64,000 nucleotides of DNA from NCBI RefSeq assembly GCF_012971745.1, contig NZ_CP048834.1, positions 5,341,001-5,405,000 of the forward strand, written 5' to 3'. A program made the translations under genes and the position numbers. Below are positions 37,404 through 51,087 of this stretch, piece by piece. The stretch is from Starkeya sp. ORNL1 (GTDB taxonomy: Bacteria > Pseudomonadota > Alphaproteobacteria > Rhizobiales > Xanthobacteraceae). Each line of letters begins with the position of its first letter. The first letter of the stretch is position 1. Below the pieces are notes generated by a model. That model ran no database searches and had not been told where the DNA came from. It worked only from the letters and a program-made list of their open reading frames with translations.

Positions 37404-37514
37404 TGTGACGCGAGGCGGCGGGCTGGTGGGCTCGCCGCTGCTCGGGTGAGACGAATGCTTGAGCGCGTTCCCTCACGGGGCGCGCTCAAATCGTTTTGGG
37501 GACACGGCGGTGGG

Positions 37515-37612
37515 CATCCTTCGAGGCCCGCCTGCGGCGGGCACCTCAGGATGACGTAGCGTTAAATAACCACGTCATCCTGAGGTGCGAGCGTAGCGAG
37601 CCTCGAAGGATG
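37515..37612. repeat. Family B intergenic palindromic repeat, copy 3
   Basis: CATCCTTCGAGGCCCGCCTGC ... GGATGACGTAGCGTTAAATAACCACGTCATCC ... CCTCGAAGGATG, a full inverted repeat of ~98 bp with both ends intact. Confidence 0.88.
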
Positions 37613-37639
37613 CTCAAGCAGAGCGCCTTCCCCAACAAC

Positions 37640-37734: not shown

Positions 37735-38142
37735 ATGGAACCGATCATCTCGACTGCGAAAGCCCTGCTGCAGCGGCGTGTCGTGCGGTTCCTCGTCGTC
37801 GGCGTGGCGAGCAGCCTCGCCTATGTCGGCATGATGTCGCTGATGGTCGACGGGCTCGGGCGCGGCATCGTGACCGGGGCCATCGCCGGCTTCATTCTGG
37901 GCACGCTGGTGTCCTATGCTGGCAACAGCCTGTGGACCTTCGAAGCGGCGATGGACGCGCGCACCTTCACCCGCTTCTGGATCGTGGTCGGCGCCGGCTT
38001 CGTGCTGAACTGGCTGATGGCTTTGGGCCTCGCCTCGCTCGGCGTGCACCATCTGCTCGTCAGCCTGGTGATCCTCACCACCGTGCCGATTTTCAATTAT
38101 GCCTGCCACTCGCTATGGACCTACCGGACGGCGGCGGGTTAG
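37735..38142 (+). CDS. GtrA family membrane protein (flippase-like)
   Basis: 135 residues with four transmembrane helices, matching GtrA: LQRRVVRFLVVGVASSLAYV at the start, GAIAGFILGTLVSYAGNSLWTF, then FWIVVGAGFVLNWLMALG and FNYACHSLWTYR. GtrA proteins are thought to flip undecaprenyl-linked glucose or similar lipid-linked sugars. First gene of a six-gene run; the next start follows its stop by 4 nt. The final gene is a GT2 of the type that often partners GtrA. Confidence 0.9.
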   Translation: MEPIISTAKALLQRRVVRFLVVGVASSLAYVGMMSLMVDGLGRGIVTGAIAGFILGTLVSYAGNSLWTFEAAMDARTFTRFWIVVGAGFVLNWLMALGLASLGVHHLLVSLVILTTVPIFNYACHSLWTYRTAAG

Positions 38143-38146
38143 GCGC

Positions 38147-39226
38147 ATGGGAAGCGTCGACGCGCTGGTCATCGGTGGTGGGTTCTTCGGCTGCGAGATC
38201 GCGGTCGAACTGCGCCGCCTCGGCTTTGCGCGTGTGATGCTGTGCGAGCGGGAGGCCGGCCTGCTGCGCCGCGCCTCCTATGTGAACCAGGCGCGGGTGC
38301 ATAACGGCTACCACTATCCCCGCTCGCTCTCGACCGCCGAGCGCTCGCGGGCGAATTTCGAACGCTTCGTCGCCGATTACGGCTTCGCCGTGCGCACCGA
38401 CATGGTGAAGCTCTACGCCATCGCCGCGACCTCGCGGGTCAATGCCGGGCAGTTCGCCAGCTTCTGCGGCAAGATCGGCGTACTGTGCCGCGAGGCGCCG
38501 GCGGCGCTGGCGCGGCTGTTCGATCCCGACCTGATCGAAGCCGCCTTCCTCACCCGCGAACTGGCCTTCGACGCGGTGGCGCTGGCGCGCTCCGCCGCGC
38601 AGCGGCTCGCCGACGTCCATGTCGATGTACGGCTGGGGACGCCGGTGAGGGTCGAGCCCATCGCCGCGCCGGCGCGACCGGTCCGCGTGACCTTGCCAAG
38701 CGAGACCATCGAGGCCGGACTTGTCGTCAATTGCACCTACGCGGCGCTCGACGATGTCGGCATCCCGGTGAAAGCACGCCTCAAGCGCGAATTGGCCGAG
38801 ATGCTGCTGATCCCGCCGCCGCGCGATATCGCCGACGTCGGCATCACGGTGATGGACGGGCCGTTCTTCTCCACCATGCCGTTTCCGGCGGCGAAGCTGC
38901 ATTCGCTCAGCCATGTGCGCTACACCCCGCACGAAGCCTGGACCGAGCCGGGCCATGGCAATGCTCTGCCCACCCGCAGCAATGCCATGGCAATGCTGCG
39001 CGATGCGGCGCGCTTCTTGCCCGTGCTGGCGAAGGTCGAGCCGGTGCGTTCCATCTTCGAGATCAAGACCGTCCTCCTGCGCAATGAGGATGATGACGGC
39101 CGGCCGATCCTCGCCGAGACCTGCGTCGCCAGCCCGCGCATCCTCAGTGTCATGGGGTCGAAGATCGACAACATCTACGATGTGCTGGAGATGCTGCGCG
39201 CCCACCAATGGAAAGAGAGCGCATGA
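38147..39226 (+). CDS. FAD-dependent oxidoreductase (DAO-like) in glycan operon
   Basis: 359 residues from ATG 38147. FAD Rossmann motif VIGGGFFGCEIAVEL followed by acidic CEREAG; then NQARVHNGYHYPRS, which recalls the flavin-contact region of D-amino-acid oxidase / L-2-hydroxyglutarate oxidase-like enzymes. The C-terminus has the expected NCTYAALDDVG and IFEIKTVLLR segments. The substrate is unknown; the operon suggests a sugar or amino-sugar. The stop overlaps the next gene (ATGA at 39223-39226). Confidence 0.8.
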   Translation: MGSVDALVIGGGFFGCEIAVELRRLGFARVMLCEREAGLLRRASYVNQARVHNGYHYPRSLSTAERSRANFERFVADYGFAVRTDMVKLYAIAATSRVNAGQFASFCGKIGVLCREAPAALARLFDPDLIEAAFLTRELAFDAVALARSAAQRLADVHVDVRLGTPVRVEPIAAPARPVRVTLPSETIEAGLVVNCTYAALDDVGIPVKARLKRELAEMLLIPPPRDIADVGITVMDGPFFSTMPFPAAKLHSLSHVRYTPHEAWTEPGHGNALPTRSNAMAMLRDAARFLPVLAKVEPVRSIFEIKTVLLRNEDDDGRPILAETCVASPRILSVMGSKIDNIYDVLEMLRAHQWKESA

Positions 39227-40230
39227 GACGCGAACGCCTGACCTCGGTCTCGCTGATACTGGTGGTGAGGGACACGCTGCCGGATCGCGCGCTTCTCGAC
39301 CGGCTGCTGGCGGTGCTCGGCGAGAACTTCACCGATGTCGAGACCATATTGGTCGCCGACGGCTCGGGCGCGGGTGTTCGCGAGCTGAAGAGCCTGGTCG
39401 CCACGCTACCGGACGCCACCTGCCTGGTGCTTGCCGAATGGCTCGACAGTGAAGTCGCCAGCATGGTCGGCATGGAGAATGCGGTGTGCGACCATGTGCT
39501 TCTGCTCTCGCTCACCGAAGCCGCGGTCGCAGCGGTGCCGGAGGCGGTGGAGCGGATACGCGCCGGCTATGATGCGGTGTTCGACCGCGCGGTGGCGGTG
39601 CATGACACCTTCATCCACCGTGCCGCCTACCAATTCCTGTCCTCGATGACCGGCGCTGCCTTGAAGCCCTCGCCGGTCGAGTTGGGGCTGATGCAGCGTG
39701 AGGCGGCGCTTTATCTGCTCTCCCGGCAGAATGCCGAACTGCTGCTGAAGGCGCGCACCTGCGGGCCGGGATTTGCCGCTACAGAGGTTGATGTGGCGGA
39801 GACGTCGCCGGAGCCGGAGCAGGTCTCCTCCCTCGCTGCTCGCGCGAGCAAGGCAGTGCGGCTCGCCATCAGCCTCGGTGCGACGCCAGTGCGGATGCTC
39901 GGGCTGTTCGCCATGCTGGCGAGTGCGCTGTCGCTACTCTATGCGGCCTATGTGGTGCTGGTGTTCCTGCTGAAGCCGAACGTCGAGGCCGGCTGGACCA
40001 CGCTGTCGCTGCAGATGGCGGGGATGATGTTCCTGTTTTCGCTGATGTTCTGGTTGCTGTCGGAATATGTCGTGCAGATCCATGCCGCTACTGGCGGGCG
40101 GCGCCGACGCACCGTGGTGCGCGAATTGCGCAGCGAGCGCACGGCACGTTCCAGCCGGCTGAACGTTGTTGATGAGACCGGCGCGTTCCGGCTCGGCGCG
40201 CCTGAGGCGGCAACCACGGGAGGCGACTGA
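39223..40230 (+). CDS. GT2-like membrane protein with degenerate catalytic motif
   Basis: 335 residues from ATG 39223. The N-terminal third has a GT-A-like start (VSLILVVRDTLPDRALLDRLLAVL, VETILVADGSGAGVREL), but where a DXD/DADLQ motif is expected it reads CDHVLLLSLTEAAVAAVPE, with no acidic pair. Two C-terminal helices (ALSLLYAAYVVLVFLLK and MAGMMFLFSLMFWLLSEYVVQI) resemble the membrane anchor of DPMS/ArnC-type transferases. Either a non-catalytic partner or a diverged enzyme. ATG overlaps the oxidoreductase stop; the next start is 1 nt after its stop. Confidence 0.65.
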   Translation: MRRERLTSVSLILVVRDTLPDRALLDRLLAVLGENFTDVETILVADGSGAGVRELKSLVATLPDATCLVLAEWLDSEVASMVGMENAVCDHVLLLSLTEAAVAAVPEAVERIRAGYDAVFDRAVAVHDTFIHRAAYQFLSSMTGAALKPSPVELGLMQREAALYLLSRQNAELLLKARTCGPGFAATEVDVAETSPEPEQVSSLAARASKAVRLAISLGATPVRMLGLFAMLASALSLLYAAYVVLVFLLKPNVEAGWTTLSLQMAGMMFLFSLMFWLLSEYVVQIHAATGGRRRRTVVRELRSERTARSSRLNVVDETGAFRLGAPEAATTGGD

Positions 40231-40231
40231 C

Positions 40232-41029
40232 ATGATCACGGCACTGATCGGTCATACCGGCTTCGTCGGCTCCAATCTCGACGCGGCGACGGTGTTCGAC
40301 GAACGCTACAACAGCCGTAACATCAACGAGATGGCGGGGCGCTCCTTCGACCTTGTGGTCTGCGCCGGGGTCTCCGCGGTGAAATGGATGGCGAACCGCG
40401 ATCCCGAGGCGGACCGCGCCGGCATCAAGCTGCTGACCGACGCGCTCGGCGCGGCGAAGATCGGCGAGCTCATCCTGATCTCCACCATCGACGTCTATCC
40501 CGACCCGGCCGCCGGCGGCGACGAGGCCACCGCGATCGACCCGGCGGCGAACCATGCCTATGGCCGCCACCGCTACGAGCTGGAAGAGTGGGCCAAGGAC
40601 ACGTTCCCGCTGGTGCGCATCGTGCGGCTGCCGGCGCTGTTCGGGCCCGGGCTGCGCAAGAACGCCATCTACGACCTGCTGCACCACAACCAGACCGATC
40701 TCATCAATCCGGCTGGGCTGTTCCAGTGGTATCCGGTCTCGCGGCTGTGGGCCGATATCGGCACCACGCGGCGCGTCGGGCTCAAGCTGGTGAACCTGTT
40801 CACCGAGCCGGTGCGGATGCGCGAGATCATCGAGTGCGACTTCCCCGGCGTCGTGGTCGGGGAGGAGAAGTATCCGGCGCCGGAGTACCGTGTCGGCACC
40901 CGGCATGCCCAGGCATTCGGCGGGGAGGGGGCGTTCATCATGTCGGCGCAGAAGTGTCTCGACACCATTTGCGGCTTCGTCGCAGACGAGCGCGGCATCG
41001 AGGCGGTCAAGGCCGGGGCGACATCGTGA
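40232..41029 (+). CDS. NAD-dependent epimerase/dehydratase-like protein
   Basis: 265 residues. The extended-SDR dinucleotide motif is IGHTGFVGSNL at the start; LILISTIDVYPD fits the strand carrying the active-site Ser/Thr; LPALFGPGLRKN is the usual substrate-side run. The catalytic YxxxK reads YGRHR (in HAYGRHRYELEEW), so the lysine is replaced by arginine. It may be an altered SDR or a sugar-nucleotide binding enzyme. ATG 40232 is 1 nt after the upstream stop. The stop overlaps the next GTG (41026). Confidence 0.8.
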   Translation: MITALIGHTGFVGSNLDAATVFDERYNSRNINEMAGRSFDLVVCAGVSAVKWMANRDPEADRAGIKLLTDALGAAKIGELILISTIDVYPDPAAGGDEATAIDPAANHAYGRHRYELEEWAKDTFPLVRIVRLPALFGPGLRKNAIYDLLHHNQTDLINPAGLFQWYPVSRLWADIGTTRRVGLKLVNLFTEPVRMREIIECDFPGVVVGEEKYPAPEYRVGTRHAQAFGGEGAFIMSAQKCLDTICGFVADERGIEAVKAGATS

Positions 41030-41868
41030 AGGGAATGGCGATCTCGAACATCCTGCTGCCGGACGGCGTAAGTGACCCGGCGGCCTGTGAGGTGTTTAGC
41101 CGGCTGGGATACTCCGGCATCGAAATCGCGCCGGGCAAATCGGTGCCGGGCTGGCCGGCGGCGCCGGCGCGCCTTGCCGAGACGCGCGCCGCGATCGAGG
41201 GCGAAGGGCTTCGCATCGTCGCCATGCAGGGCATCTTGTTCGGCATCAGCGGCGTTGCGTTGTTCGGCGCCGAGGAGGCGAGAACGCGGCTGCGCGATCA
41301 TCTCGCCAAAGTGGCGCGGGTAGCCGGTGCGCTGGGGGCGGGGGCCTGCGTGTTCGGCGCGCCGGGGGTGCGCAATCCGGGGGATCTGGCGCCCGATGCC
41401 GCGTTCCGGATCGCGGCCGACTTCTTCGGCTACCTGGCCCCGCTGTTCGCCGATGAGGGCACCACGCTCGCCTTCGAGGCCAATGCGCCGGTCTATGGCT
41501 GCAAGTTCGCCACCACGACCCGCGAGGCGCTGGATCTGGTGAAGGCGATCCACCATCCCGGCGTTCGGCTGCAGATCGACACCGGGACCATGTTCCTCAA
41601 CCAGGAGGACCCGGCGGTGATCGTCGAAGCGGCGCCCTTTGCCAGCCATTTCCATGTCAGCGAGCCGCAACTCGCCGCGCTCGGCGCTTCCGGCGTCGAC
41701 CATGGTCCGATCGCCGCGGCGCTCGGCGAAGCCTCCTATGATGGCTGGATCTCGGCGGAGATGAAGGCGGCGGGGGCATGGGAAGACGCGGCGGCGGGCG
41801 CCGCCGAACTGATCTCCGAACTCTACATGCCGTCCGCCGTGCTGGCCGCTGGGGCCGATCCTCTATGA
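41026..41868 (+). CDS. Sugar phosphate isomerase/epimerase (TIM barrel, AP-endonuclease-2-like)
   Basis: 280 residues if the GTG at 41026 is used, giving the GTGA overlap common in this operon; ATG 41035 is an alternative. The barrel shows metal-ligand strands FEANAPVYG, LQIDTGTMFL, HFHVSEPQ and ISAEMKA, the E-D-H-E set of the xylose-isomerase-like fold. Likely acts on a sugar or inositol derivative; exact substrate cannot be read. The stop overlaps the next ATG (ATGA at 41865). Confidence 0.85.
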   Translation: MKGMAISNILLPDGVSDPAACEVFSRLGYSGIEIAPGKSVPGWPAAPARLAETRAAIEGEGLRIVAMQGILFGISGVALFGAEEARTRLRDHLAKVARVAGALGAGACVFGAPGVRNPGDLAPDAAFRIAADFFGYLAPLFADEGTTLAFEANAPVYGCKFATTTREALDLVKAIHHPGVRLQIDTGTMFLNQEDPAVIVEAAPFASHFHVSEPQLAALGASGVDHGPIAAALGEASYDGWISAEMKAAGAWEDAAAGAAELISELYMPSAVLAAGADPL

Positions 41869-42653
41869 GCACCGATACGCCCAGTCGTGCCATCCCGGCG
41901 CATCGCACCGACATCCTGGGGCCCAAGCAGCACCGCCATGTGCTGGTGATCCCGGTCATCAATGAGGGCGAGCGCATCCGCCGCCAGCTTCGGCAAATCG
42001 CCGAACTTGCCCCGGCATGCGACATCGTCATCGCCGATGGCGGCTCGACCGACGGCTCGCTCGATCCCGATTTCCTGCGTTTCGTCGGCGTGCGCGCGCT
42101 GCTGACCAAGACCGCGCCTGGCAAATTGAGCGCGCAGCTGCGCATCGCCTATGCCTTCGCGCTGGACGAGGGCTATGACGGCGTCGTCACTGTCGACGGC
42201 AACGGCAAGGATGGCGTCGATGCCATCCCGCTGTTCCTGGAGAAGCTCGACGAGGGGTATGACTATGTGCAGGGCTCGCGCTATGTCGCCGGCGGCGTCG
42301 CCGAGAACACGCCGCGGGATCGCCATCTCGCCGGCCGGCTGATCCATGCGCCGGTGCTGAGCCTTGCCGCCGGGCATTGGTACACCGACACGACCAACGG
42401 ATTCCGCGCCTACTCGGCGCGCTACCTCGCCGATCCGCGCGTGGCGCCGTTTCGCGACGTGTTCGTGCGTTATGAGTTGCTGTTCTATCTGACCGTGCGC
42501 GCGGCGCGGCTGGGCCTGCGCACCACGGAGGTGCCGGTCGCCCGCCGCTACCCGGTGGGCGAGGCCACGCCGACCAAGATCAGCGGCATGAGAGGGCGCC
42601 TGGACATGCTGGGCGAACTGTTCGCCGCGGCGACGGGACGGTTCAATCCATAG
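41865..42653 (+). CDS. Glycosyltransferase family 2
   Basis: 262 residues. GT-A fold with VLVIPVINEGERIRRQL and CDIVIADGGSTDGS for nucleotide-sugar binding, and VVTVDGNGKDGVDAIP supplying the metal-binding acidic motif. VQGSRYVAGG and TNGFRAYSARYL match polyprenyl-phosphate hexosyltransferases (DPM/ArnC-like), although no membrane helix follows. It likely charges a lipid carrier that the GtrA-like protein flips. Last gene of the operon; a family A repeat follows. Confidence 0.88.
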   Translation: MSTDTPSRAIPAHRTDILGPKQHRHVLVIPVINEGERIRRQLRQIAELAPACDIVIADGGSTDGSLDPDFLRFVGVRALLTKTAPGKLSAQLRIAYAFALDEGYDGVVTVDGNGKDGVDAIPLFLEKLDEGYDYVQGSRYVAGGVAENTPRDRHLAGRLIHAPVLSLAAGHWYTDTTNGFRAYSARYLADPRVAPFRDVFVRYELLFYLTVRAARLGLRTTEVPVARRYPVGEATPTKISGMRGRLDMLGELFAAATGRFNP

Positions 42654-42669
42654 CGACCCCTGCTGGGTC

Positions 42670-42770
42670 GTCATCCCGGCCGGAGCGCAGCGGAGAGCCG
42701 GGATCGCGTGAAGTCCCGCGCATCACCTTCCTACGATCCCGGATCGGGCCTGCGGCCCGTCCGGGATGAC
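42670..42770. repeat. Family A intergenic palindromic repeat, copy 5
   Basis: GTCATCCCGGCCGGAGCGCAG ... GATCCCGGATCGGGCCTGCGG ... CGTCCGGGATGAC, full-length, between the convergent GT2 and GNAT genes. Confidence 0.87.
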
Positions 42771-42781
42771 GACTTTGGGAA

Positions 42782-43360
42782 TTAAGCCGCCAAACGCAGG
42801 TCCGAGGCGAAGCGCTTTTCCATGCCCATGGCGACGAAGATCAACCCGCCGTCCAGCGCGCCGAACACCGCGCCCTGGCGGCGCCAGCCGCGCTCGGCGA
42901 AGAAGCCTTCGGCCGCCAGCGTCGCCGCCACCCGGGCACGGGCGAAGCCCTGGGTGCGCAGGTCGGCATCGATGCGCTCCAGCAAGGCGGAGCCGATGCC
43001 GTAGCGGATGAAGAGCGGATGCACGAACACGCCATGGACGTGCGGCACATCAACGCCGCCGGCCGTGGTCGGCAATTCGATCTCGCTGCCCATGTAGCTC
43101 GGCTCGCGCATCGACCAGCCGCCGCAGGCCACCGCCTCGCCCTCGATTTCGGCGATGAAGAAGGTGCCGTCGGACACCAGCTCGGCGTCGAAGGTGCCGA
43201 TGCGCGGAATGAGGGATTCGATCACCTCCTCGCCATGCACGCGACGCGCAAAGCCGCGCAGCGATGCCGCCTGGAGGCGGCGAACATCGGTAAGGTCGGT
43301 GGGATTGGCGCGACGGACGCGCAGAACAGCCGCGGTTGAGCTCGATTGGGTCGCCGGCAT
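42782..43360 (-). CDS. GNAT family N-acetyltransferase
   Basis: 192 residues. GNAT motif A appears as VHGVFVHPLFIRYGIGSALLERI, carrying the RxxGxG acetyl-CoA loop (RYGIGSAL). Other landmarks are the N-terminal RVRRANPTDLTDVRRLQ and GGWSMREPSYMG. Substrate unknown. ATG 43360 follows GGAG. Its neighbours, the glycan operon and ccmC, do not suggest a shared pathway. Confidence 0.85.
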   Translation of the reverse strand: MPATQSSSTAAVLRVRRANPTDLTDVRRLQAASLRGFARRVHGEEVIESLIPRIGTFDAELVSDGTFFIAEIEGEAVACGGWSMREPSYMGSEIELPTTAGGVDVPHVHGVFVHPLFIRYGIGSALLERIDADLRTQGFARARVAATLAAEGFFAERGWRRQGAVFGALDGGLIFVAMGMEKRFASDLRLAA

Positions 43361-43656
43361 CAGTTTGTCTCCGTCTTCCGGAGGCCCCCGCCCGGGGCAC
43401 CGTCTGCTTACTGGGCACGGCGAGACTTAGAGCCCATTTTCCAAACCGGAAGGGCCCCGGGAATCACGCCATCGTGTCGTCAAGCTAGGGACGGCCTCAG
43501 GAATCGAGGCTGAACGTGGCATTCACCGGGCATTCATCCGGCGAGGGCGCGTCCGCCCATCACACCTCCGTTGATTACCGTTACGGCCATCACATCCGCG
43601 TTGTGCCGCAGGATGCGTGAGTTGCCCCCCGTCCTGCAGCCGATTAGAACCGCGCC
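43361..43656. other. 296-bp divergent region between GNAT and ccmC
   Basis: Contains the GNAT leader and the ccmC promoter. I see a direct repeat GCATTCACCG / GCATTCATCCG near 43520-43540 and no gene. ccmA and ccmB are not here. Confidence 0.6.
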
Positions 43657-44391
43657 ATGGCGCTGATGGACTTCGCGAACCCGACCCGTTTCCTCGCCCT
43701 TTCCGGGCGGGTGCTGCCGTGGCTCGCGGCGGCGAGCGCCATCGTGCTGGCAGCGGGCTTCGTGCTCGCCTTCCGCGCCCCTGCCGACTACCAGCAGGGC
43801 GAGACCGTGAAGATCATGTACATCCATGTGCCGTTCGCCTGGCTCGCCATGCTCGGCTACACGGCGCTGGCCTTGTCCGCGCTCGGCATATTGGTGTGGC
43901 GGCATCCGCTGGCGGATGTCGCGCACAAGGCGATGGCCCCGATCGGGGCGGTATTCGCCTTCCTGTGCCTGCTCACCGGCTCGCTCTGGGGTCGGCCGAT
44001 GTGGGGCACCTATTGGGTGTGGGATGCGCGGCTGACCTCGATGCTGGTGCTGCTGCTGCTCTATCTCGGCTTGCTGGCACTGCGCTCGGCGGTCGAGGAT
44101 CCGAACCAGGCCGGGCGCGCGGCGGCGGTGCTGACGCTGGTAGGCTTCGTCAATGTGCCGATCGTGAAATTCTCGGTCGACTGGTGGAACACGCTGCACC
44201 AGCCGGCCTCGGTGTTTCGCTTGGGCGGACCGACCATCGATCCGAGCCTGCTGTGGCCGCTGCTGCTCACCGCCATCGGCTTCACGCTGCTGATGCTGAC
44301 GCTGCATCTGATGGCGATGCGCAACGAGATATTGCGCCGCCGGCTGCGCTCGCTCGAAGCGAGGGCCGCCGCCGAAGCCGCGTTCGCCTGA
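43657..44391 (+). CDS. ccmC: Heme ABC exporter permease CcmC
   Basis: 244 residues, six predicted membrane helices. The Trp-rich heme motif is WGTYWVWDARLTS (residues ~116-128), with the conserved histidines in YIHVPFAWL and NTLHQPASVF. CcmC presents heme to CcmE during cytochrome c maturation (System I). It is followed by ccmD (9 bp) and ccmG. The usual upstream ccmA/ccmB pair is missing; a GNAT gene on the other strand takes that place. Confidence 0.96.
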   Translation: MALMDFANPTRFLALSGRVLPWLAAASAIVLAAGFVLAFRAPADYQQGETVKIMYIHVPFAWLAMLGYTALALSALGILVWRHPLADVAHKAMAPIGAVFAFLCLLTGSLWGRPMWGTYWVWDARLTSMLVLLLLYLGLLALRSAVEDPNQAGRAAAVLTLVGFVNVPIVKFSVDWWNTLHQPASVFRLGGPTIDPSLLWPLLLTAIGFTLLMLTLHLMAMRNEILRRRLRSLEARAAAEAAFA

Positions 44392-44400
44392 GGTAAAGCC

Positions 44401-44574
44401 ATGCTCGGGGAACACGCCTCCTTCATCCTCGCCGCCTATGCCGGCTCGGCGGCGGTGCTGGCTGCGCTGGTGGCTTGGATCATGCTCGACGGCCGCGCGG
44501 TGCGCCGCTCGCTCGACGAAATGGATGCGCGCGGCGTGCGCCGCCGCTCCGCCGGCCGCGAGGAGGGGCAATGA
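44401..44574 (+). CDS. ccmD: Heme exporter protein CcmD
   Basis: 57 residues, found by reading the gap between ccmC and ccmG: MLGEHASFILAAYAGSAAVL, then a helix AALVAWIMLDGRAVRRSLDE and a basic tail. One membrane segment, an aromatic/Gly-rich N-terminus and an Arg-rich cytoplasmic tail are typical of CcmD, which releases holo-CcmE from CcmABC. Its stop overlaps the ccmG ATG (ATGA at 44571-44574), supporting operon reading. Confidence 0.9.
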   Translation: MLGEHASFILAAYAGSAAVLAALVAWIMLDGRAVRRSLDEMDARGVRRRSAGREEGQ

Positions 44575-45182
44575 GCGAAGCGCCCGCCCAGACCCCTATC
44601 GAAGGCCAGCCGGCACCGCCGCGACGGCGGCTGCTAGTGCTGCTGCCGCTGATCGCCTTCGCGGCGCTGGCGGCACTGTTCTATGGCCGCCTGTTCTCCG
44701 GCGATCCCTCGCGCCTGCCGTCCGCCCTGATCGGCCATGAGGCACCGGTGCTCGATTTGCCCGCGCTTGACGGGCTCGCCCGCGACGGCGCGCCGGTGCC
44801 GGGGCTGGAGTCCGCGGTGCTCAAGGGCCAGGTGACGGTGCTGAACGTGTTCGCTTCCTGGTGCGCGCCGTGCCGCGACGAGCACCCGCTGCTGGTCGAA
44901 CTGTCGAAGCAGCAGGGCTTCCGCCTCGTCGGCCTGAACTACAAGGACGATGCCGAGAATGCCCGGCGTTTCCTCGGCCGCTTCGGCAATCCGTTCGCCG
45001 CGGTCGGCGTCGATGCCAATGGCCGCGCCGCGATCGAATGGGGCGTCTATGGCGTGCCGGAGACCTTCATCGTCGGCAAGGACGGGCGCATCGCCTACAA
45101 ATATGTCGGCCCGATCGACGAGGACGGGTTGCGGACGCGGCTCATGCCGGAGATCGCCAAGGCGATGGCGGCGGGCGGGTAG
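44571..45182 (+). CDS. ccmG: Thiol:disulfide interchange protein CcmG/DsbE
   Basis: 203 residues. An N-terminal signal-anchor (RRRLLVLLPLIAFAALAALFYG) places a thioredoxin domain in the periplasm. The active site is NVFASWCAPCRDEHPLL, and the later YGVPETFIVGKDGRI carries the cis-proline region. It reduces apocytochrome c cysteines before heme attachment. Starts within the ccmD stop, completing ccmC-ccmD-ccmG. Confidence 0.95.
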   Translation: MSEAPAQTPIEGQPAPPRRRLLVLLPLIAFAALAALFYGRLFSGDPSRLPSALIGHEAPVLDLPALDGLARDGAPVPGLESAVLKGQVTVLNVFASWCAPCRDEHPLLVELSKQQGFRLVGLNYKDDAENARRFLGRFGNPFAAVGVDANGRAAIEWGVYGVPETFIVGKDGRIAYKYVGPIDEDGLRTRLMPEIAKAMAAGG

Positions 45183-45202
45183 GGTAGGTCGCCCTGCTGC
45201 AA

Positions 45203-45301
45203 CATCCTTCGAGGCTCGCTAGTGCTCGCACCTCAGGATGACGTGGCTTTAAAAACGACGTCATCCTGAGGTGTCCGGCTTTGGCCGGGCCTCGAAGGAT
45301 G
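45203..45301. repeat. Family B intergenic palindromic repeat, copy 4
   Basis: CATCCTTCGAGGCTCGCTAG ... GGATGACGTGGCTTTAAAAACGACGTCATCC ... CTCGAAGGATG, between convergent ccmG and the DUF1178 gene. Confidence 0.88.
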
Positions 45302-45315
45302 CTGCAGCAGAGCGC

Positions 45316-45804
45316 CTAATTCCGCTCGTCCGGCAGGCTCGGCAGCGGGTGGATCTCGATCTCGTCCTCGATCAGCGACTTCACTTCCTCGGCGCTGGCT
45401 TCGCCATAGATGGAGCGCTTCTCGACCTCGCCCTCGTGCATCTGCCGGGCGACCGTGGCGAACTCGTCGCCGACATAGTCGGAATTCTTCACCACGTGCT
45501 CGCGCACCGCGCGCAGCATCTCGCGCAGTTCGCGCTCCTTCTCGGAGATCAGCGCTACCGGCTGTGGAGCCTCGGCGGCCGTTGTCTCGACGGGGGCGGA
45601 AGCTGGCGCAGAGTTGGCGTCTTGCGCGAACTTCTTCGTGCCGCGGCCAAGTGCCGGCGCCATGATCGCCTTCTCCACCTTGGCGGAGCCGCAGACCGGG
45701 CAGGCGACCAGCTTCTTCTTGCGCTGGCCCTCATAGGCGGCGGAATCGCGGAACCAGCTCTCGAAATCGTGGTCGGCGTCGCAACGTAGCTGATAGCGGA
45801 TCAT
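45316..45804 (-). CDS. DUF1178 family protein
   Basis: 162 residues with the DUF1178 pattern: MIRYQLRCDADHDFESWFRD at the start, a CPVCGSAKVEKAIMAPALG zinc-like motif, and a C-terminal VKNSDYVGDEFATVARQMHEGE plus SIYGEASAEEVKSLIEDE. The function is unknown; the CxxC knuckle suggests metal binding. Its ATG overlaps the stop of the nitrilase-family gene (45801-45804), placing it last in grxC-nit-DUF1178. Confidence 0.93.
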   Translation of the reverse strand: MIRYQLRCDADHDFESWFRDSAAYEGQRKKKLVACPVCGSAKVEKAIMAPALGRGTKKFAQDANSAPASAPVETTAAEAPQPVALISEKERELREMLRAVREHVVKNSDYVGDEFATVARQMHEGEVEKRSIYGEASAEEVKSLIEDEIEIHPLPSLPDERN

Positions 45805-46706
45805 GCTGCGTCACCGGCGACCCGCAGCCGTGTCACCTCGCCGGGCGGCACCAATTCGAAGCGCCTGCCATGGTCGAGCGAGGGGATGCGCGTGCGCACC
45901 GCCGCCACCTTGGCGGGGTCGATCTCGGCGGTGATGATGCCGGGCTCGGTGCCGCCCTCGGCGAGGATGGTGCCCCAGGGGTCGATGATGAGGCTGTGGC
46001 CGAAGGTCTCGCGGCCATTCTCGTGCTTGCCGCCCTGCGCGGCCGCCAGCACATAGGAACCGGTCTCGATGGCACGGGCGCGCAGCAATATGTGCCAGTG
46101 CGCCTCGCCGGTCGGGCGGGTGAAGGCGGCAGGCGCCGCGATCATGCCGGCGCCGGCCTCGGCCAGGGCGCGGAACAGCGCCGGGAAACGCAGGTCGTAG
46201 CAGATGGTGAAGCCCAGCCGGATCTCTGGAAGATCGGCCAGCACGGCAATCTCGCCCGGGCGGTAGGCGGTGGATTCGCGATAGACGTCGCCATTGGGCA
46301 AATCGACGTCGAACATGTGGATCTTGTCGTAGCGCGCGGCGATCGAGCCGTCCGGCGCGATGAGATAGGAGCGGTTGGCGGCACGGTGCTCGCTCGCCCG
46401 CACGGCCAGCGAGCCGACATGCAGATGCACCTTCAGCTCCTCCGCCAGCGTGCGGAAGGCAGCGAGCGCGGGATCGCTCTCCTCCTCATGCAGGATGGCG
46501 AACAGCGCGGCGCGGTTTTCCTCCATGGTGCCGGTCATTTCCGGGGTCTGGATGTAGCTGGCGCCCTCGGCCGCCGCCTGGCGGATCAGCGCGCTCGCCG
46601 CCTCGACATTCGCCCCCACGTTCTTTGCCGTGCGCATCTGCACCAAAGCGGCCTTGAAGGGCGCGCCTTGCGATGCGGCGGCCTGGCGGGTGTCGGGGGC
46701 GCTCAT
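45801..46706 (-). CDS. Carbon-nitrogen hydrolase (nitrilase superfamily, Nit2-like)
   Basis: 301 residues from ATG 46706. The catalytic triad is visible: Glu in IQTPEMTGTME, Lys in ARYDKIHMFDVD, and Cys in FTICYDLRFP. The EH-rich middle matches omega-amidase/Nit2, which removes alpha-keto acid amides or deaminated glutathione. It lies between grxC (27 bp upstream) and DUF1178, an order I remember as conserved in Rhizobiales. The gene also has the weakly preferred longer start at 46733, not used. Confidence 0.93.
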   Translation of the reverse strand: MSAPDTRQAAASQGAPFKAALVQMRTAKNVGANVEAASALIRQAAAEGASYIQTPEMTGTMEENRAALFAILHEEESDPALAAFRTLAEELKVHLHVGSLAVRASEHRAANRSYLIAPDGSIAARYDKIHMFDVDLPNGDVYRESTAYRPGEIAVLADLPEIRLGFTICYDLRFPALFRALAEAGAGMIAAPAAFTRPTGEAHWHILLRARAIETGSYVLAAAQGGKHENGRETFGHSLIIDPWGTILAEGGTEPGIITAEIDPAKVAAVRTRIPSLDHGRRFELVPPGEVTRLRVAGDAA

Positions 46707-46733
46707 GCTGTTCTCCGTACGCAAATGAGACAA

Positions 46734-46994
46734 TCAGTCGGCGACCAGCAACGGGTCGAGTTCGCCGGCCTCGTCGAGAGCATAGAGGTCATCGCAGCCG
46801 CCGACATGGTTGCCGCTGATGAAGACCTGGGGGACGCTGCTGCGGCCATGGGCGCGCCGGGTCATCGCCGCGCGGCCTTCGGCGTCGCCCGTCACATTGA
46901 TCTCGGAGAATTCGATGCCCTTGCGGCGCAGCAGGTCCTTGGCCGCGTGGCAATAGGGACAGGAACTCGTCGTATAGATTTCGACCGCTGACAT
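46734..46994 (-). CDS. grxC: Glutaredoxin 3
   Basis: 86 residues. Redox site SSCPYCHAAKDLL (CPYC dithiol), the cis-proline SSVPQVFISG and the GSH-contact GGCDDLYAL are all present. Acts as a glutathione-dependent disulfide reductase. Its neighbour Nit2-like enzyme may be linked through glutathione repair (inference). Confidence 0.96.
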   Translation of the reverse strand: MSAVEIYTTSSCPYCHAAKDLLRRKGIEFSEINVTGDAEGRAAMTRRAHGRSSVPQVFISGNHVGGCDDLYALDEAGELDPLLVAD

Positions 46995-47027
46995 CGGGCA
47001 CCGGGCGCTTGGTGTTGAAGGGGTAGC

Positions 47028-47828
47028 CTATGATATGGGCGTGGACGCGTCGTCAACAACCCGTGCGAACACCAACACATCGACCTCGGCGGCGCCGGCG
47101 CGGCTCAGCGCCTTGACGCAGGCGTCGAGCGTGGCGCCGGTTGTGAGCACATCGTCGACGACGACGATGCGGCCGTCGCGTACCTCGCCCACCATTTCCT
47201 CCGGGACGACGAAGGCGCCGGCGACATTGGCGGCGCGGGCGGCACGGTCGAGGCCGACTTGCGGGATCGTCGCGCGCCGCCGTTCCAGCCACCCCGTGCG
47301 CACCGGAACATTGGCGCTGCGGCTGATCGCCATCGCCAGCGCTGCCGACTGATTGAAGCGTCGCCGCCACAGCCGCAGCGGATGCAGCGGCACCGGAACC
47401 AGCGCGTCCGCCTCGGTGAGCAATTCGGCGCCGGCCCGCGCCATCAGCCCACCGAGCGGGGCGGCGAGCTCGATGCGGTCGGCATATTTCAGCGCGTGCA
47501 CCAGATCGCGGGCGACCTCGCCGAACGTCACGGCGGCGCGGGCGCGGCTGTAGGCCGGCGGCTGGGCCAGCGCTCCAGGGGAGATTCGGCTGCCCGAGTC
47601 ATAGGGCAGGGGCGTGCCGAGCCGTTCGCACAGTGGCGGCGTGATGAATTCCAGCCGGCGCCAGCATGCGGCGCACAGGGCACCGGGATCGCTCACCGCG
47701 GCGCGGCAGGCGATGCAGCCGGGCGGCAGCACAAGGTCGGCAATGCCACGGCCGAGCTTGAGCATTGCCATGGCCGTGCCATGGCGCAGGCGCGTAGCGA
47801 GCGGTGGTGCGGGTGCCTCCGTATCCAT
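47028..47828 (-). CDS. ComF family phosphoribosyltransferase-like protein
   Basis: 266 residues. N-terminal zinc-finger cysteines in LPPGCIACRAAVSDPGALC and AACW, then VPVPLHPLRLWRRRFNQSA and the PRPP-binding loop IVVVDDVLTTGAT. ComF-like proteins take part in DNA uptake in competent bacteria, but in alphaproteobacteria they are usually present without a known role. 33 bp upstream of grxC. No other competence gene is in the window. Confidence 0.92.
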   Translation of the reverse strand: MDTEAPAPPLATRLRHGTAMAMLKLGRGIADLVLPPGCIACRAAVSDPGALCAACWRRLEFITPPLCERLGTPLPYDSGSRISPGALAQPPAYSRARAAVTFGEVARDLVHALKYADRIELAAPLGGLMARAGAELLTEADALVPVPLHPLRLWRRRFNQSAALAMAISRSANVPVRTGWLERRRATIPQVGLDRAARAANVAGAFVVPEEMVGEVRDGRIVVVDDVLTTGATLDACVKALSRAGAAEVDVLVFARVVDDASTPIS

Positions 47829-47899
47829 GTACCGAGCCTAGCATGCTTTGACCGGGACGGGCGGGAGGACTAAGACGCGCGCAACAGCCGAGGCAGCCA

Positions 47900-48778
47900 A
47901 TGTCCGCTCCCGACATATTCGATGCCCGCGCGCTCACGGCCCGGCGCCGGCGCGCACTCCGGCTCGGGCCGGCGACCTTCCTGCTCGACCGGGTGGCGGA
48001 GGATCTTGCCGACCGGCTGACGGCGGTGAAGCGGCAGTTCGAGGTCGCGGCCGATATCGGCACCGCCGGGGAAGCAGTACGGCACGCGCTCACCGGTAGC
48101 GTCGGCCGGCTTTATGCCTTCGGTCCCGGCGAGCGGGCCGACGTCGATGTCGTCACCGATCCGGAATTGCTGCCTTTGGCGCCGGTCGCGTTCGATCTCG
48201 CGGTCTCCGCGCTCGCCTTGCAGACGGTGAACGACTTGCCGGGCGCGCTGGCGCAGATCCGCCGCGCCCTGCGGCCGGATGGGCTGCTGCTCGCCGCGCT
48301 GTTCGGCAGCGGCACGCTCAACGAACTGCGCGAGAGCTTTGCGATCGCCGAGAGCGATACGGTCGGCGGCATCTCGCCGCGCGTCGCGCCGTTCGCCGAT
48401 CTGCGCGACCTCGGCGGGCTGCTGCAACGCGCCGGCTTTGCCTTGCCGGTCACCGATGTCGACCGCGTGGTGGTGCGCTATGCCGATCCGTTCGCGCTGT
48501 TCGCCGATCTGCGCCGCATGGGCGCGGCCAACCCGCTCAGCGCCCGGCGGCGCGCGCCGCTCCGGCGCGAGACTCTGGCGCGCGCGGTGGAGGTCTATGC
48601 CGAGCGCTTCACCGATCCGGACGGGCGGCTGCGGGCGACGTTCGAGATCGTCTGGATATCCGGCTGGGCGCCGCATGAGAGCCAGCAGCAGCCGCTGCGC
48701 CCGGGTTCGGCCAAGCACCGGCTGGCGGATGCGCTGGGCGCGCGGGAAATCCCGTTGAAGCCGGGCGGGGCGGATTAA
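47900..48778 (+). CDS. Methyltransferase-fold protein, NDUFAF5/BioC-like
   Basis: 292 residues. Weak SAM motif I in VAADIGTAGEAV, AFDLAVSALALQTVNDLPGAL as motif II/III and the LRPDGLLLAALFG strand are those of the mitochondrial complex I assembly factor NDUFAF5 and its alphaproteobacterial orthologues. Start MSAPDIFDARALTARRRRA also fits. It is divergent from comF, as I recall in several Rhizobiales. Hydroxylation of an NDUFS7-like Arg is the human activity; transfer to this protein is inference. Confidence 0.85.
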   Translation: MSAPDIFDARALTARRRRALRLGPATFLLDRVAEDLADRLTAVKRQFEVAADIGTAGEAVRHALTGSVGRLYAFGPGERADVDVVTDPELLPLAPVAFDLAVSALALQTVNDLPGALAQIRRALRPDGLLLAALFGSGTLNELRESFAIAESDTVGGISPRVAPFADLRDLGGLLQRAGFALPVTDVDRVVVRYADPFALFADLRRMGAANPLSARRRAPLRRETLARAVEVYAERFTDPDGRLRATFEIVWISGWAPHESQQQPLRPGSAKHRLADALGAREIPLKPGGAD

Positions 48779-48787
48779 GATCGGCGG

Positions 48788-49021
48788 TCAGGGATTGGCC
48801 GGATTGGCCGGCTGCACCGCGCGCACCGCGGCGAGGATCTTGACGTAATATTGCTCGTTGACGGCGTCGCCGAGCGAATAGACCGCGCCGGCGATGACAG
48901 TGCTGATGCCTGCGGCAATGATGGCATATTCGATGGACGTGGCTGCGCCCTCGTCGCGCCAGAAATCCCTCAGCTTGCCCGAGAATCCGGGCTCATCGGG
49001 CAGATTCCGGCACGGCACCAT
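48788..49021 (-). CDS. Flp/Fap family type IVb pilin
   Basis: 77 residues from ATG 49021 (GGAG upstream). The pilin core is FWRDEGAATSIEYAIIAAGI, with the Gly/Ala-Ala cleavage context and a hydrophobic stretch to VYSLG, followed by a polar tail ending PANPANP. Flp subunits are processed by a prepilin peptidase and assembled by a Tad system. No tad, cpa or peptidase gene is in the window, so this is an orphan. It lies 15 bp after mutT on the same strand. Confidence 0.82.
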   Translation of the reverse strand: MVPCRNLPDEPGFSGKLRDFWRDEGAATSIEYAIIAAGISTVIAGAVYSLGDAVNEQYYVKILAAVRAVQPANPANP

Positions 49022-49036
49022 TGTGGCCCACTCCAC

Positions 49037-49459
49037 TCAAGGCAGTCCGACACCCCCGGACCCGACAATGTCGACGATTACCGGTATCAGCGGCTCGTCG
49101 GCCGGCGGCATGGGATAGTCCCGCAGCTTGCTGGGACGCACCCAAGCGAGACGCTGGCCTTCGCGGCCCTGCGCCAGTCCTTCCCAGCGGCGGCAGATCC
49201 ACAGCGGCATCAGCAGCTGGAAGTCCGCATAGGTGTGGCTGGCGAAGGTCAGCGGCGCGAGGCAGGCTTCCTTGACGACGATGCCAAGTTCTTCCGCCAA
49301 CTCGCGTATCAGCGTCTCCTCCGGCCGCTCGCCAGCCTCGACCTTGCCGCCGGGGAATTCCCACAATCCGGCCAGAGCCTTGCCGGCCGGGCGCTCGGTG
49401 ATGAGCACGCGGCCGTCGGCATCGACCAGAGCACAGGCGGCTACCAGAACGAGTTTCAC
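49037..49459 (-). CDS. mutT: 8-oxo-dGTP diphosphatase MutT (Nudix)
   Basis: 140 residues. The Nudix box is GGKVEAGERPEETLIREL followed by AEELGI, matching GX5EX7REUXEEXGU. LWEFPGGK and ADFQLLMPLWIC fit MutT. Start GTG 49459 follows GGGG at good spacing; an in-frame TTG at 49471 is less likely. It hydrolyses oxidised dGTP and prevents A:T to C:G mutation. 79 bp separates it from the argJ stop. Confidence 0.93.
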   Translation of the reverse strand: MKLVLVAACALVDADGRVLITERPAGKALAGLWEFPGGKVEAGERPEETLIRELAEELGIVVKEACLAPLTFASHTYADFQLLMPLWICRRWEGLAQGREGQRLAWVRPSKLRDYPMPPADEPLIPVIVDIVGSGGVGLP

Positions 49460-49538
49460 GAACGACCCCAATAGGCTACCGGCAAGATATTAACGCCACG
49501 CTGCCCGAATTATCCGAAATGCGGGTTATTTCCCGATA

Positions 49539-50786
49539 TCAGGAACGATAATCGCCATTGATGGCGACATATTCCTTGGTGAGGTCGCAGGTCATCACCC
49601 GGTCGGCACCCTTGCCGAGGCCGAGATCGACACCGAGATCGATGACGTCGCCCTTCATGTAGGTGGAGACCTCCTGCTCGTCATAGCTCGGATCGCGCGC
49701 GCCCTCGGCGGCCACCTGGATGGTGCCGAAGCGGATGGCGATGCGGTCGCGGTCGGCCGGCTCGCCGGCCTTGCCCACCGCCATGACGACGCGACCCCAA
49801 TTGGCGTCCTCGCCGGCAATGGCGGTCTTCACCAGCGGCGAATTGGCGATCGACATGGCGATGCGCCGCGCCGAGCGCTTCGAGGTGGCGCCGGTGACGG
49901 CGATGCGCACCAGCTTGCGGGCGCCTTCGCCGTCGCGGGCGACCTGTTCCGCGAGGTCGGCGAGCACGCCCTGCAGCGCCTTGCGGAAGGCCTTGAGGCG
50001 GGCGTCCTTGGCGTCCTTGACCTCCTTGATGCCCTTGGCGGCGCCGGTGGCGAACAGGAGCAGGGTGTCGGAGGTCGAGGTGTCGCCGTCGATGGTCACG
50101 GCGTTGAAGCTGTCGGTGACGCCTTTCGACAGCAATTCCTGGAGCACGGGCGCGGCGATGGGCGCATCGGTGAAGACGAAGGAGAGCATGGTCGCCATGT
50201 CCGGCGCGATCATGCCGGCGCCCTTGGCCATGCCGGCGATGGTGACCGGCACGCCGTCGATCTCGACGCTCACGGTGGCGAGCTTCGGGAAGGTGTCGGT
50301 GGTCATGATGGCGCGCGCCGGCTCGATCCACGGCAATGGCGCGAGGCGGGTGGCGGTCTCGTCGAGCACGCCTTCATATTTGGTGGCGTCGAGCGGCTCG
50401 CCGATGACGCCGGTGGAGGCGAGGAAGATCTCCCTCGGCTTGCAGCCAAGCGCCTTCGCCGCGAGCTTGGCGGTGAGTTCGGTGGCGACACGGCCCTTCT
50501 TGCCGGTGAAGGCATTGGCGTTGCCGGAATTCACCACGAGGCCGCGGGCCTTGCCGCCGCCAAGCTGCGCCCGGCACCATTCGACCGGGGCGGACGGGCA
50601 CTTCGAGCGGGTGAAGACGCCGGCGACCGTGGTGCCCTTGTCGAGCGCCAGCAGCAGCACGTCGGTGCGGCCCTTGTAGCGGATGCCGGCCTCGGCGGTG
50701 GCGAAGCGCACGCCGGCGACTTCCCCGACCTCGGGCGTCGTCTTCGGGGCGAGCGGGGAGACGGGCGTGGCCTTGGCTGCGGACAT
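49539..50786 (-). CDS. argJ: Glutamate N-acetyltransferase / amino-acid acetyltransferase
   Basis: 415 residues. ArgJ is an autocleaving Ntn-like enzyme; the nucleophile Thr is in [11 protein letters not shown] (about T199), giving alpha and beta chains. Other signatures are [15 protein letters not shown] and [15 protein letters not shown], and the end ...[13 protein letters not shown]. Transfers acetyl from N-acetylornithine to glutamate, closing the arginine acetyl cycle. ATG 50786 ([12 protein letters not shown]) chosen because the extended upstream frame is low-complexity Arg/Pro-rich. Confidence 0.96.
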
Positions 50787-51087
50787 CGGCGATCCTCGGA
50801 AGTATCCTGCGCGCTGGCGGGAAGGCATGGTGGCGGGAAGGCGCGTTGGATGTGCCCGAAGCCGCCGTCGCGCGCAAGGCAGGCGTGGTCGCGCGCGCAG
50901 GGGAAGGCCGGCTTTCCTTGACTTCGCCACATCCGGCGATTAGTAACCCGCCTTCATTCTCGCTCATCCTTGCGAGCCGTCCCGCCGCCCGGCCCTTGAG
51001 ACCGGAGGTTCCCGCCCGACAGCGCTGTGCGCCCTCGGGCGTTTTTCGGCTTTGCCTCGATTACGGGAGCATGGAGCAAACGGACGC
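50787..51087. other. 301-bp divergent region between argJ and ffh
   Basis: Should contain promoters for both genes. It includes the short CGCCC-TC-GGGCG motif followed by five T (51030-51046). No gene is supported; the short frames across it are GC artefacts. Confidence 0.6.

Follow-up and report, generated by a model that had tools for sequence, protein, structure and literature searches.

Which product would require a GtrA-type protein, an oxidoreductase dependent on flavin adenine dinucleotide (FAD), two glycosyltransferases of family 2 (GT2), a short-chain dehydrogenase/reductase (SDR), and a triosephosphate isomerase (TIM) barrel protein to be encoded in one compact unit? This question is raised by six genes at positions 37735-42653, all on the plus strand, of a 64,000-nt stretch of Starkeya sp. 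ORNL1 DNA (contig NZ_CP048834.1, positions 5,341,001 to 5,405,000), hereafter the window. Two junctions between the genes are gaps (4 and 1 nt) and the other three are overlaps of 4 nt, and both coordinates and Pfam assignments agree with the initial annotation, which had described six packed genes of these families with 1-4 nt gaps or ATGA/GTGA overlaps. From the spacing alone we infer co-transcription. The gene combination is not known to have been described, and it is not unique to the window, because 347 relatives of the FAD enzyme were found. We assign a probability of about 0.5 to the reading that we are dealing with one copy of a cassette found widely, whose products assemble a sugar on polyprenyl phosphate, edit it, and flip it.

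Relatives were gathered by scanning contigs of GTDB genomes with the FAD protein, and the best 80 of the 347 were kept; loci fetched in this way say little about SDR, TIM barrel or GT2 genes occurring without the FAD gene. In 66 of the 80 loci, the genes for the FAD enzyme, the GtrB-like GT2 relative termed GTp, the SDR, the TIM barrel protein, and the second GT2 were located by tblastn on one strand within 9 kb. Two of these loci, L052 and L060, contain a GT2 matching at 28-29% only and lacking the family motif, and their exclusion reduces the count to 64/80. With all five non-flippase genes together in 66/80 loci, the set is linked far beyond chance. Among the 14 loci without the full unit, seven have the FAD gene or the cassette near a contig end (L018, L024, L029, L039, L050, L071, and L075), four hold other enzymes (L027, L047, L066, and L072), and L011, L051, and L067 miss some cassette genes in tblastn. 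Wherever both genes occur, FAD adjoins GTp in 74/76 loci and SDR adjoins TIM in 67/69.

According to record titles, FAD relatives occur in seven phyla, namely Pseudomonadota, Planctomycetota, Chloroflexota, Cyanobacteriota, Actinomycetota, Bacillota, and Acidobacteriota; the five-gene unit was observed in the first six, and the Acidobacteriota record contains FAD and GTp only. Several of these records are metagenome-assembled genomes (MAGs). The five families diverge in step: when their pairwise distances are compared over 65 sets, that of the window among them, correlations of 0.94-0.97 result (permutation maximum 0.41; L052 and L060 were left out due to their weak GT2 matches). Among 398 genomes sampled evenly from the phylum, with scoring of the top 5 or 6 candidates in each, FAD was found in five and SDR in seven. 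The two genes are near each other in G000, G086, G519, and G539 and on separate short contigs in G436, and the other two SDR genomes comprise G508, with a 27% FAD relative beside the SDR gene, and G305, with a 3.5-kb contig. That surface-glycan genes are merely clustered here, each serving a separate pathway, is very hard to credit: some copies do lie inside polysaccharide loci (L101, L035, and L047), but stand-alone copies occur at unrelated sites, as in the window, and on a 10.8-kb plasmid, the five families diverge in a correlated manner, and all FAD genomes of the draw (5/398) fall within the SDR genomes (7/398).

In the proposed sequence of events, a GT2 similar to dolichol-phosphate mannose (DPM) synthase, held at the membrane together with GTp, would take a common hexose from its nucleotide-sugar donor and attach it to polyprenyl phosphate. 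The FAD enzyme would then convert one ring hydroxyl to a ketone, the TIM barrel protein would epimerise the carbon beside it, and the SDR would reduce the ketone, leaving an epimerised, uncommon sugar. GtrA, or a small multidrug resistance (SMR) protein in most relatives, would flip the lipid-linked sugar, and a polytopic transferase of the glycosyltransferase C (GT-C) type would place it on a surface glycan. An oxidise-epimerise-reduce sequence is known from YcjS, YcjR, and YcjQ of Escherichia coli and, without a TIM barrel, from DprE1/DprE2; its parts are an oxidase using FAD, an epimerase for keto-sugars, and a keto-reductase. We infer each of these reactions, the lipid carrier, the acceptor, and the order of oxidation, epimerisation, and reduction. 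The genes and their families, their linkage, the exchange of flippases, and the polytopic partners and fusions are observed. Five of the six proteins exceed the gathering scores of their Pfam families (GtrA, DAO, Epimerase for the SDR, AP_endonuc_2 for the TIM barrel, and Glycos_transf_2 for the second GT2), GTp lacks a Pfam match, and none of the six reaches an NCBIfam equivalog cut-off.

The SDR gene (40232..41029) follows GTp after a 1-nt gap and encodes a short extended-type SDR with STxD and Y110xxxR114 (PF01370, 26.4 bits) and a GxxGxxG motif present as GHTGFVG. Both by profile and by fold (template modeling score about 0.7; structure model with a mean predicted local distance difference test score, pLDDT, of 94.7) it matches RmlD and GalE, i.e., keto-sugar reductases/epimerases. 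The TIM barrel gene (41026..41868, GTGA overlap with the SDR gene, alternative in-frame ATG start at 41035) encodes a relative of ketose epimerases/isomerases (PF01261, 102 bits). Its residues E151, D185, H208, H210, and E245 are each kept in 71/71 sequences, and E151, D185, H210, and E245, which presumably form a metal site, line up with ketose 3-epimerases. Profile matches include a putative sugar isomerase, psicose/tagatose 3-epimerases, and the IolO-type protein TM_0416, and extend to IolI (2.3e-9) and the 3-keto-D-glucoside 4-epimerase 6wn6 (8.2e-8); the curated ketose 3-epimerase/YcjR-type equivalog is not reached, the best NCBIfam match scoring 32.9 bits vs a cut-off of 300. The second GT2 gene (41865..42653, ATGA overlap with the TIM gene) encodes a DPM-like protein without membrane segments carrying DGGSTDGS and D111-G-N113-x-K-D (PF00535, 31.8 bits), whose best profile match is the DPM synthase of Pyrococcus (52.6 bits). 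The D-G-N-x-K-D motif is present in 72/74 sequences, the exceptions being those of L052 and L060.

These family relationships also bear on the kind of product. It is distinctly improbable that the three enzymes yield a lipid-linked ketose, cyclitol or small hydroxy-acid instead of an epimerised hexose. The matches of the TIM barrel to ketose 3-epimerases, IolI, and hydroxypyruvate isomerase models would suit such a product, as would the sequence neighbors of the FAD enzyme, which oxidise glycerophosphate and hydroxyglutarate, but the nearest relatives of the GT2 are DPM synthase and ArnC, both of which load aldoses.

The FAD gene (38147..39226) starts 4 nt after the GtrA gene and encodes a protein of the DAO fold (PF01266, 80.2 bits; structure model pLDDT 88.8) with the motif VNQARVHNGYHYPRS, which is conserved across the family. 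In an ATGA overlap it is followed by the GTp gene (39223..40230), the product of which carries C-terminal membrane segments, matches the sll0501 profile, and contains the DGS motif as ADGS. The GTp family profile aligns over nearly its full length with GtrB/sll0501 (156 bits), and more distant forms, in L085, L087, L088, and L099, score 66-82 bits against the GTp profile. The GT2-like membrane protein of the initial annotation is, more precisely, a GtrB relative in which neither Asp of the DXD motif is kept in the window, where S-L-T occupies this position. A pseudogene was considered, but the membrane part (window residues 251-300) is the best-conserved stretch of GTp, with 11 columns of at least 90% conservation, which suggests a retained structural role. 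A canonical DPM/GtrB pair is ruled out by the absence of DXD from both GT2-like proteins.

The constant FAD-GTp pairing suggests that a lipid-linked sugar may be oxidised at the membrane. In L047 (6961-12956) and L066, the pair is accompanied by an aldo/keto reductase (AKR), another GT2, and GtrA in place of SDR, TIM, and D-G-N GT2, and in L027 (7974-13662) by a Gfo/Idh protein, another GT2, and GtrA; in L072, an AKR-type replacement, the frame of which was not picked up by the script, follows the pair. These four loci are what one would expect if the FAD enzyme worked in tandem with an NAD(P)H reductase that can be exchanged. It is quite possible, if less than probable, that FAD and the catalytically degraded GTp form a constant membrane unit oxidising sugars already on polyprenyl phosphate, with all other parts interchangeable: SDR plus TIM, an AKR or a Gfo/Idh protein for finishing, GtrA or SMR for flipping, and the transferase for the acceptor. 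By exchanging such modules, which even a plasmid of 10.8 kb can carry, bacteria would then change their surface sugars.

The same pairing bears on the stage at which the sugar is edited. Editing by FAD enzyme, TIM barrel, and SDR ahead of lipid loading, with a nucleotide sugar or a free or phosphorylated sugar as substrate, is rather unlikely, since FAD adjoins the membrane GtrB relative GTp in 74/76 loci and the pairing survives replacement of SDR, TIM, and GT2, and since the Psychrobacter plasmid cassette described below comes without a nucleotidyltransferase. Editing before loading would agree with the proximity of the SDR to RmlD and GalE, which are nucleotide-sugar enzymes, with the use of free sugars by ketose 3-epimerases, and with the dTDP-rhamnose-type genes beside some cassettes. 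Such genes were noted at L035, L051, and L014, where they may hint at the donor or merely reflect the type of locus.

For the proposed editing of a lipid-linked sugar, the flippase slot and the polytopic partners are informative. The GtrA gene (37735..38142) encodes a four-helix protein, putatively a flippase for lipid-phosphate sugars (PF04138, 55.4 bits), with four hydrophobic stretches, membrane segments being counted by hydropathy. In searches with profiles built from cassette members, SMR was found in 50/80 loci, GtrA in 7/80, and both in none (0/80). The SMR proteins resemble ArnE/F, and one taken as an example matches Multi_Drug_Res and EamA. In 53/80 loci the cassette comes with a polytopic protein of 350 aa or more, encoded within it, no more than about 300 nt away or as a fusion; these proteins form 23 sequence clusters. 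On the Cereibacter plasmid p.A, the GT2 is fused to a PMT_2 polytopic domain (29.1 bits vs a cut-off of 26.1), and in L022 a GtrII gene follows the GT2 gene (32.6 bits vs a cut-off of 30). The Kuenenia MAG (L015) contains a 769-aa GT2 fusion with an unclassified polytopic part, whose sole match, to a putative glycosyltransferase family, stays below threshold, and a 999-aa frame in L018 (3197-6196) joins a polytopic part to GTp; the seemingly fused partner in L031 is an over-extended overlapping frame. For the window copy, the transferase is presumed to act in trans because none is recognisable in cis, although many relatives carry one adjacent. A search of the window's own genome revealed four PMT_2 proteins elsewhere, none of them tied to the cassette.

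Taken together, the five-gene linkage, the FAD-GTp and SDR-TIM adjacencies, the distance correlations, the mutual exclusivity of SMR and GtrA, the PMT_2 and polytopic fusions, GtrII beside GT2, the keto-sugar relatives of TIM and SDR, and the exchanged reductases argue for the editing of a lipid-linked sugar. Several observations weigh against it. In fold comparisons, glycine oxidase and further amine oxidases head the list for the FAD enzyme model, with L-2-hydroxyglutarate dehydrogenase 16th and glycerophosphate oxidase 25th, whereas the nearest models by sequence are L-alpha-glycerophosphate oxidase and L-2-hydroxyglutarate oxidase; due to this disagreement, oxidation of an alcohol and of an amine are both possible. 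The SDR has YxxxR, with Arg in place of the usual catalytic Lys (Y110 and R114 in 71/71). In the GT2, D-x-N replaces DXD, and GTp likewise lacks a standard DXD: Asp is present at the first position in 60/78 and at the second in 3/78 sequences, at both in 0/78, and at neither in 15/78, including the window copy. In 23/80 loci neither type of flippase was found and in 27/80 no polytopic partner, some of these loci being truncated at the end of a contig. Among the 53 polytopic partners there is one acyltransferase (L035), 16 of 18 distinct polytopic proteins scanned have no GT-C-type Pfam match above cut-off, and the window cassette is without a recognisable transferase in cis. Moreover, the co-occurrence of the genes is equally compatible with other types of product. 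Two functional claims of the initial annotation persist in part. Loading of a lipid carrier and flipping gain from comparison, SMR being usual where GtrA is absent and polytopic proteins being adjacent or fused to the glycosyltransferases; the proposed sugar modification by oxidoreductase, SDR, and isomerase agrees with tight co-occurrence and family resemblance.

Mobility of the cassette is indicated by plasmid records, 10 of 72,556 of which contain FAD at E 1e-40 or better. Environmental strains with a copy include Azospirillum sp. TSA2s and Psychrobacter sp. ANT_P22. The 10.8-kb Psychrobacter plasmid pA22P4 (L100) has little besides the cassette, carrying mobilisation and replication genes, SDR, TIM, SMR, FAD, GTp, GT2, and a 480-aa polytopic protein; its GTp gene, open at 5422-6357, is missing from the plasmid annotation. 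Little was found in favor of a phage origin, as a single match covering 61% of the query was obtained among 50,697 phage records. Within the genus of the window, FAD occurs in 2/30 genomes (its own and G167) and the PPIC-type peptidylprolyl isomerase (PPIase) gene situated upstream of the cassette in 30/30, which marks the window copy as specific to its lineage. Of the 28 genomes without FAD, six were read (L102-L107), and in every one of them the block 43648-50939 lies beside the PPIase gene in the opposite orientation, and the window cassette is located at the breakpoint of this inversion. The same arrangement as in the window is present in L005, a Xanthobacteraceae MAG with an 86% identical FAD enzyme. 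Considered from the GNAT and cytochrome c assembly genes to argJ, the stretch 42785-50939 is inverted relative to the six genus relatives, the GNAT gene being found in one of them (L103). The window's genome contains a second, divergent, and more complete cassette (L085 6961-13917; G000:C1 4.73-4.74 Mb) with an FAD enzyme of 47% identity, GtrA, and a 534-aa polytopic protein for which no paralogue was found in the same genome.

Since the window cassette is flanked by the PPIase gene upstream and by genes encoding a GNAT protein, a cytochrome c assembly protein, and a thioredoxin-like protein downstream, this copy lies outside a polysaccharide locus. A terminator-like hairpin, a pattern match only, is situated 3' of the PPIase gene (37459..37489, plus strand); the whole-region scan returned 2 such sites vs 2.1 in shuffles, i.e., no excess. 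Upstream of the cassette, a pair of palindromic repeats was observed (37511..37616; 17 nt at 100% and 21 nt at 90% complementarity), and directly downstream a palindrome with 47-nt arms (42667..42773). The promoter scan returned 0 sites. Elsewhere in the window, positions 50998-51049 match the ffh sRNA family of Rfam (RF01793, 53.3 bits).

If the proposed cassette function holds, a second, unrelated enzyme set would join the very few known ways to alter sugar stereochemistry near the lipid-linked stage, and the gain of an uncommon surface sugar in one horizontal step would be explained. With the signatures VNQARVHNGYHYPRS for FAD, D-G-N for GT2, and YxxxR for SDR, a single system could be recognised in hundreds of genomes that at present list FAD oxidoreductase, TIM barrel, and hypothetical protein only, and the SMR/GtrA exchange would provide a natural test of the equal function of GtrA and SMR proteins.

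Among known systems, the Arn pathway for the modification of lipid A with 4-amino-4-deoxy-L-arabinose shares with the cassette a polyprenyl-phosphate-loading GT2, an SMR flippase, a polytopic GT-C protein, and three clustered sugar enzymes. The cassette differs in that FAD, SDR, and TIM stand in place of ArnA, ArnB, and ArnD, which are absent from the six window genes (other Pfam families), in the extra degenerate GtrB-like protein, in GtrA often substituting for SMR, and in the varying acceptor transferase. The ArnC equivalog is missed with 27.6 and 19.8 bits for PRK10714 vs a cut-off of 529, and the SMR pair beside GT2 is replaced by GtrA in the window and by one SMR gene in relatives (50/80). 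In common with Gtr serotype-conversion clusters (GtrA, GtrB, and a GtrII-type protein), GtrA (PF04138, 55.4 bits), a GtrB relative, and a variable polytopic transferase occur, including GtrII in L022, but the cassette adds three sugar-editing enzymes and a second GT2, and the DXD of GtrB is altered (S-x-T in the window); a polytopic, serotype-specific transferase in cis is present beside many relatives and absent in the window. The mycobacterial DprE1/DprE2 system with Rv3789 (GtrA) and AftA similarly places an FAD/SDR redox pair next to GtrA and GT-C for editing a lipid-linked sugar, but the cassette has a TIM barrel and a GT2 pair, and its FAD enzyme is a DAO protein (PF01266) and not of the DprE1 family, DprE1 belonging to another FAD family. 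With the glucoside-guloside interconversion by YcjS, YcjR, and YcjQ of E. coli, the cassette would share oxidation, TIM-barrel epimerisation, and reduction, and the profile of the cassette TIM weakly matches the YcjR structure 6wn6; that pathway differs in being catabolic, in employing Gfo/Idh and other dehydrogenases, and in lacking lipid loading and flipping. The Glu, Asp, His, and Glu conserved in ketose 3-epimerases and YcjR-type proteins are present in 71/71 TIM sequences, and the classical extended SDR combination of GxxGxxG and YxxxK is departed from by YxxxR in 71/71. The cassette would work like the Arn, Gtr, and DprE systems yet lacks defining features of each.

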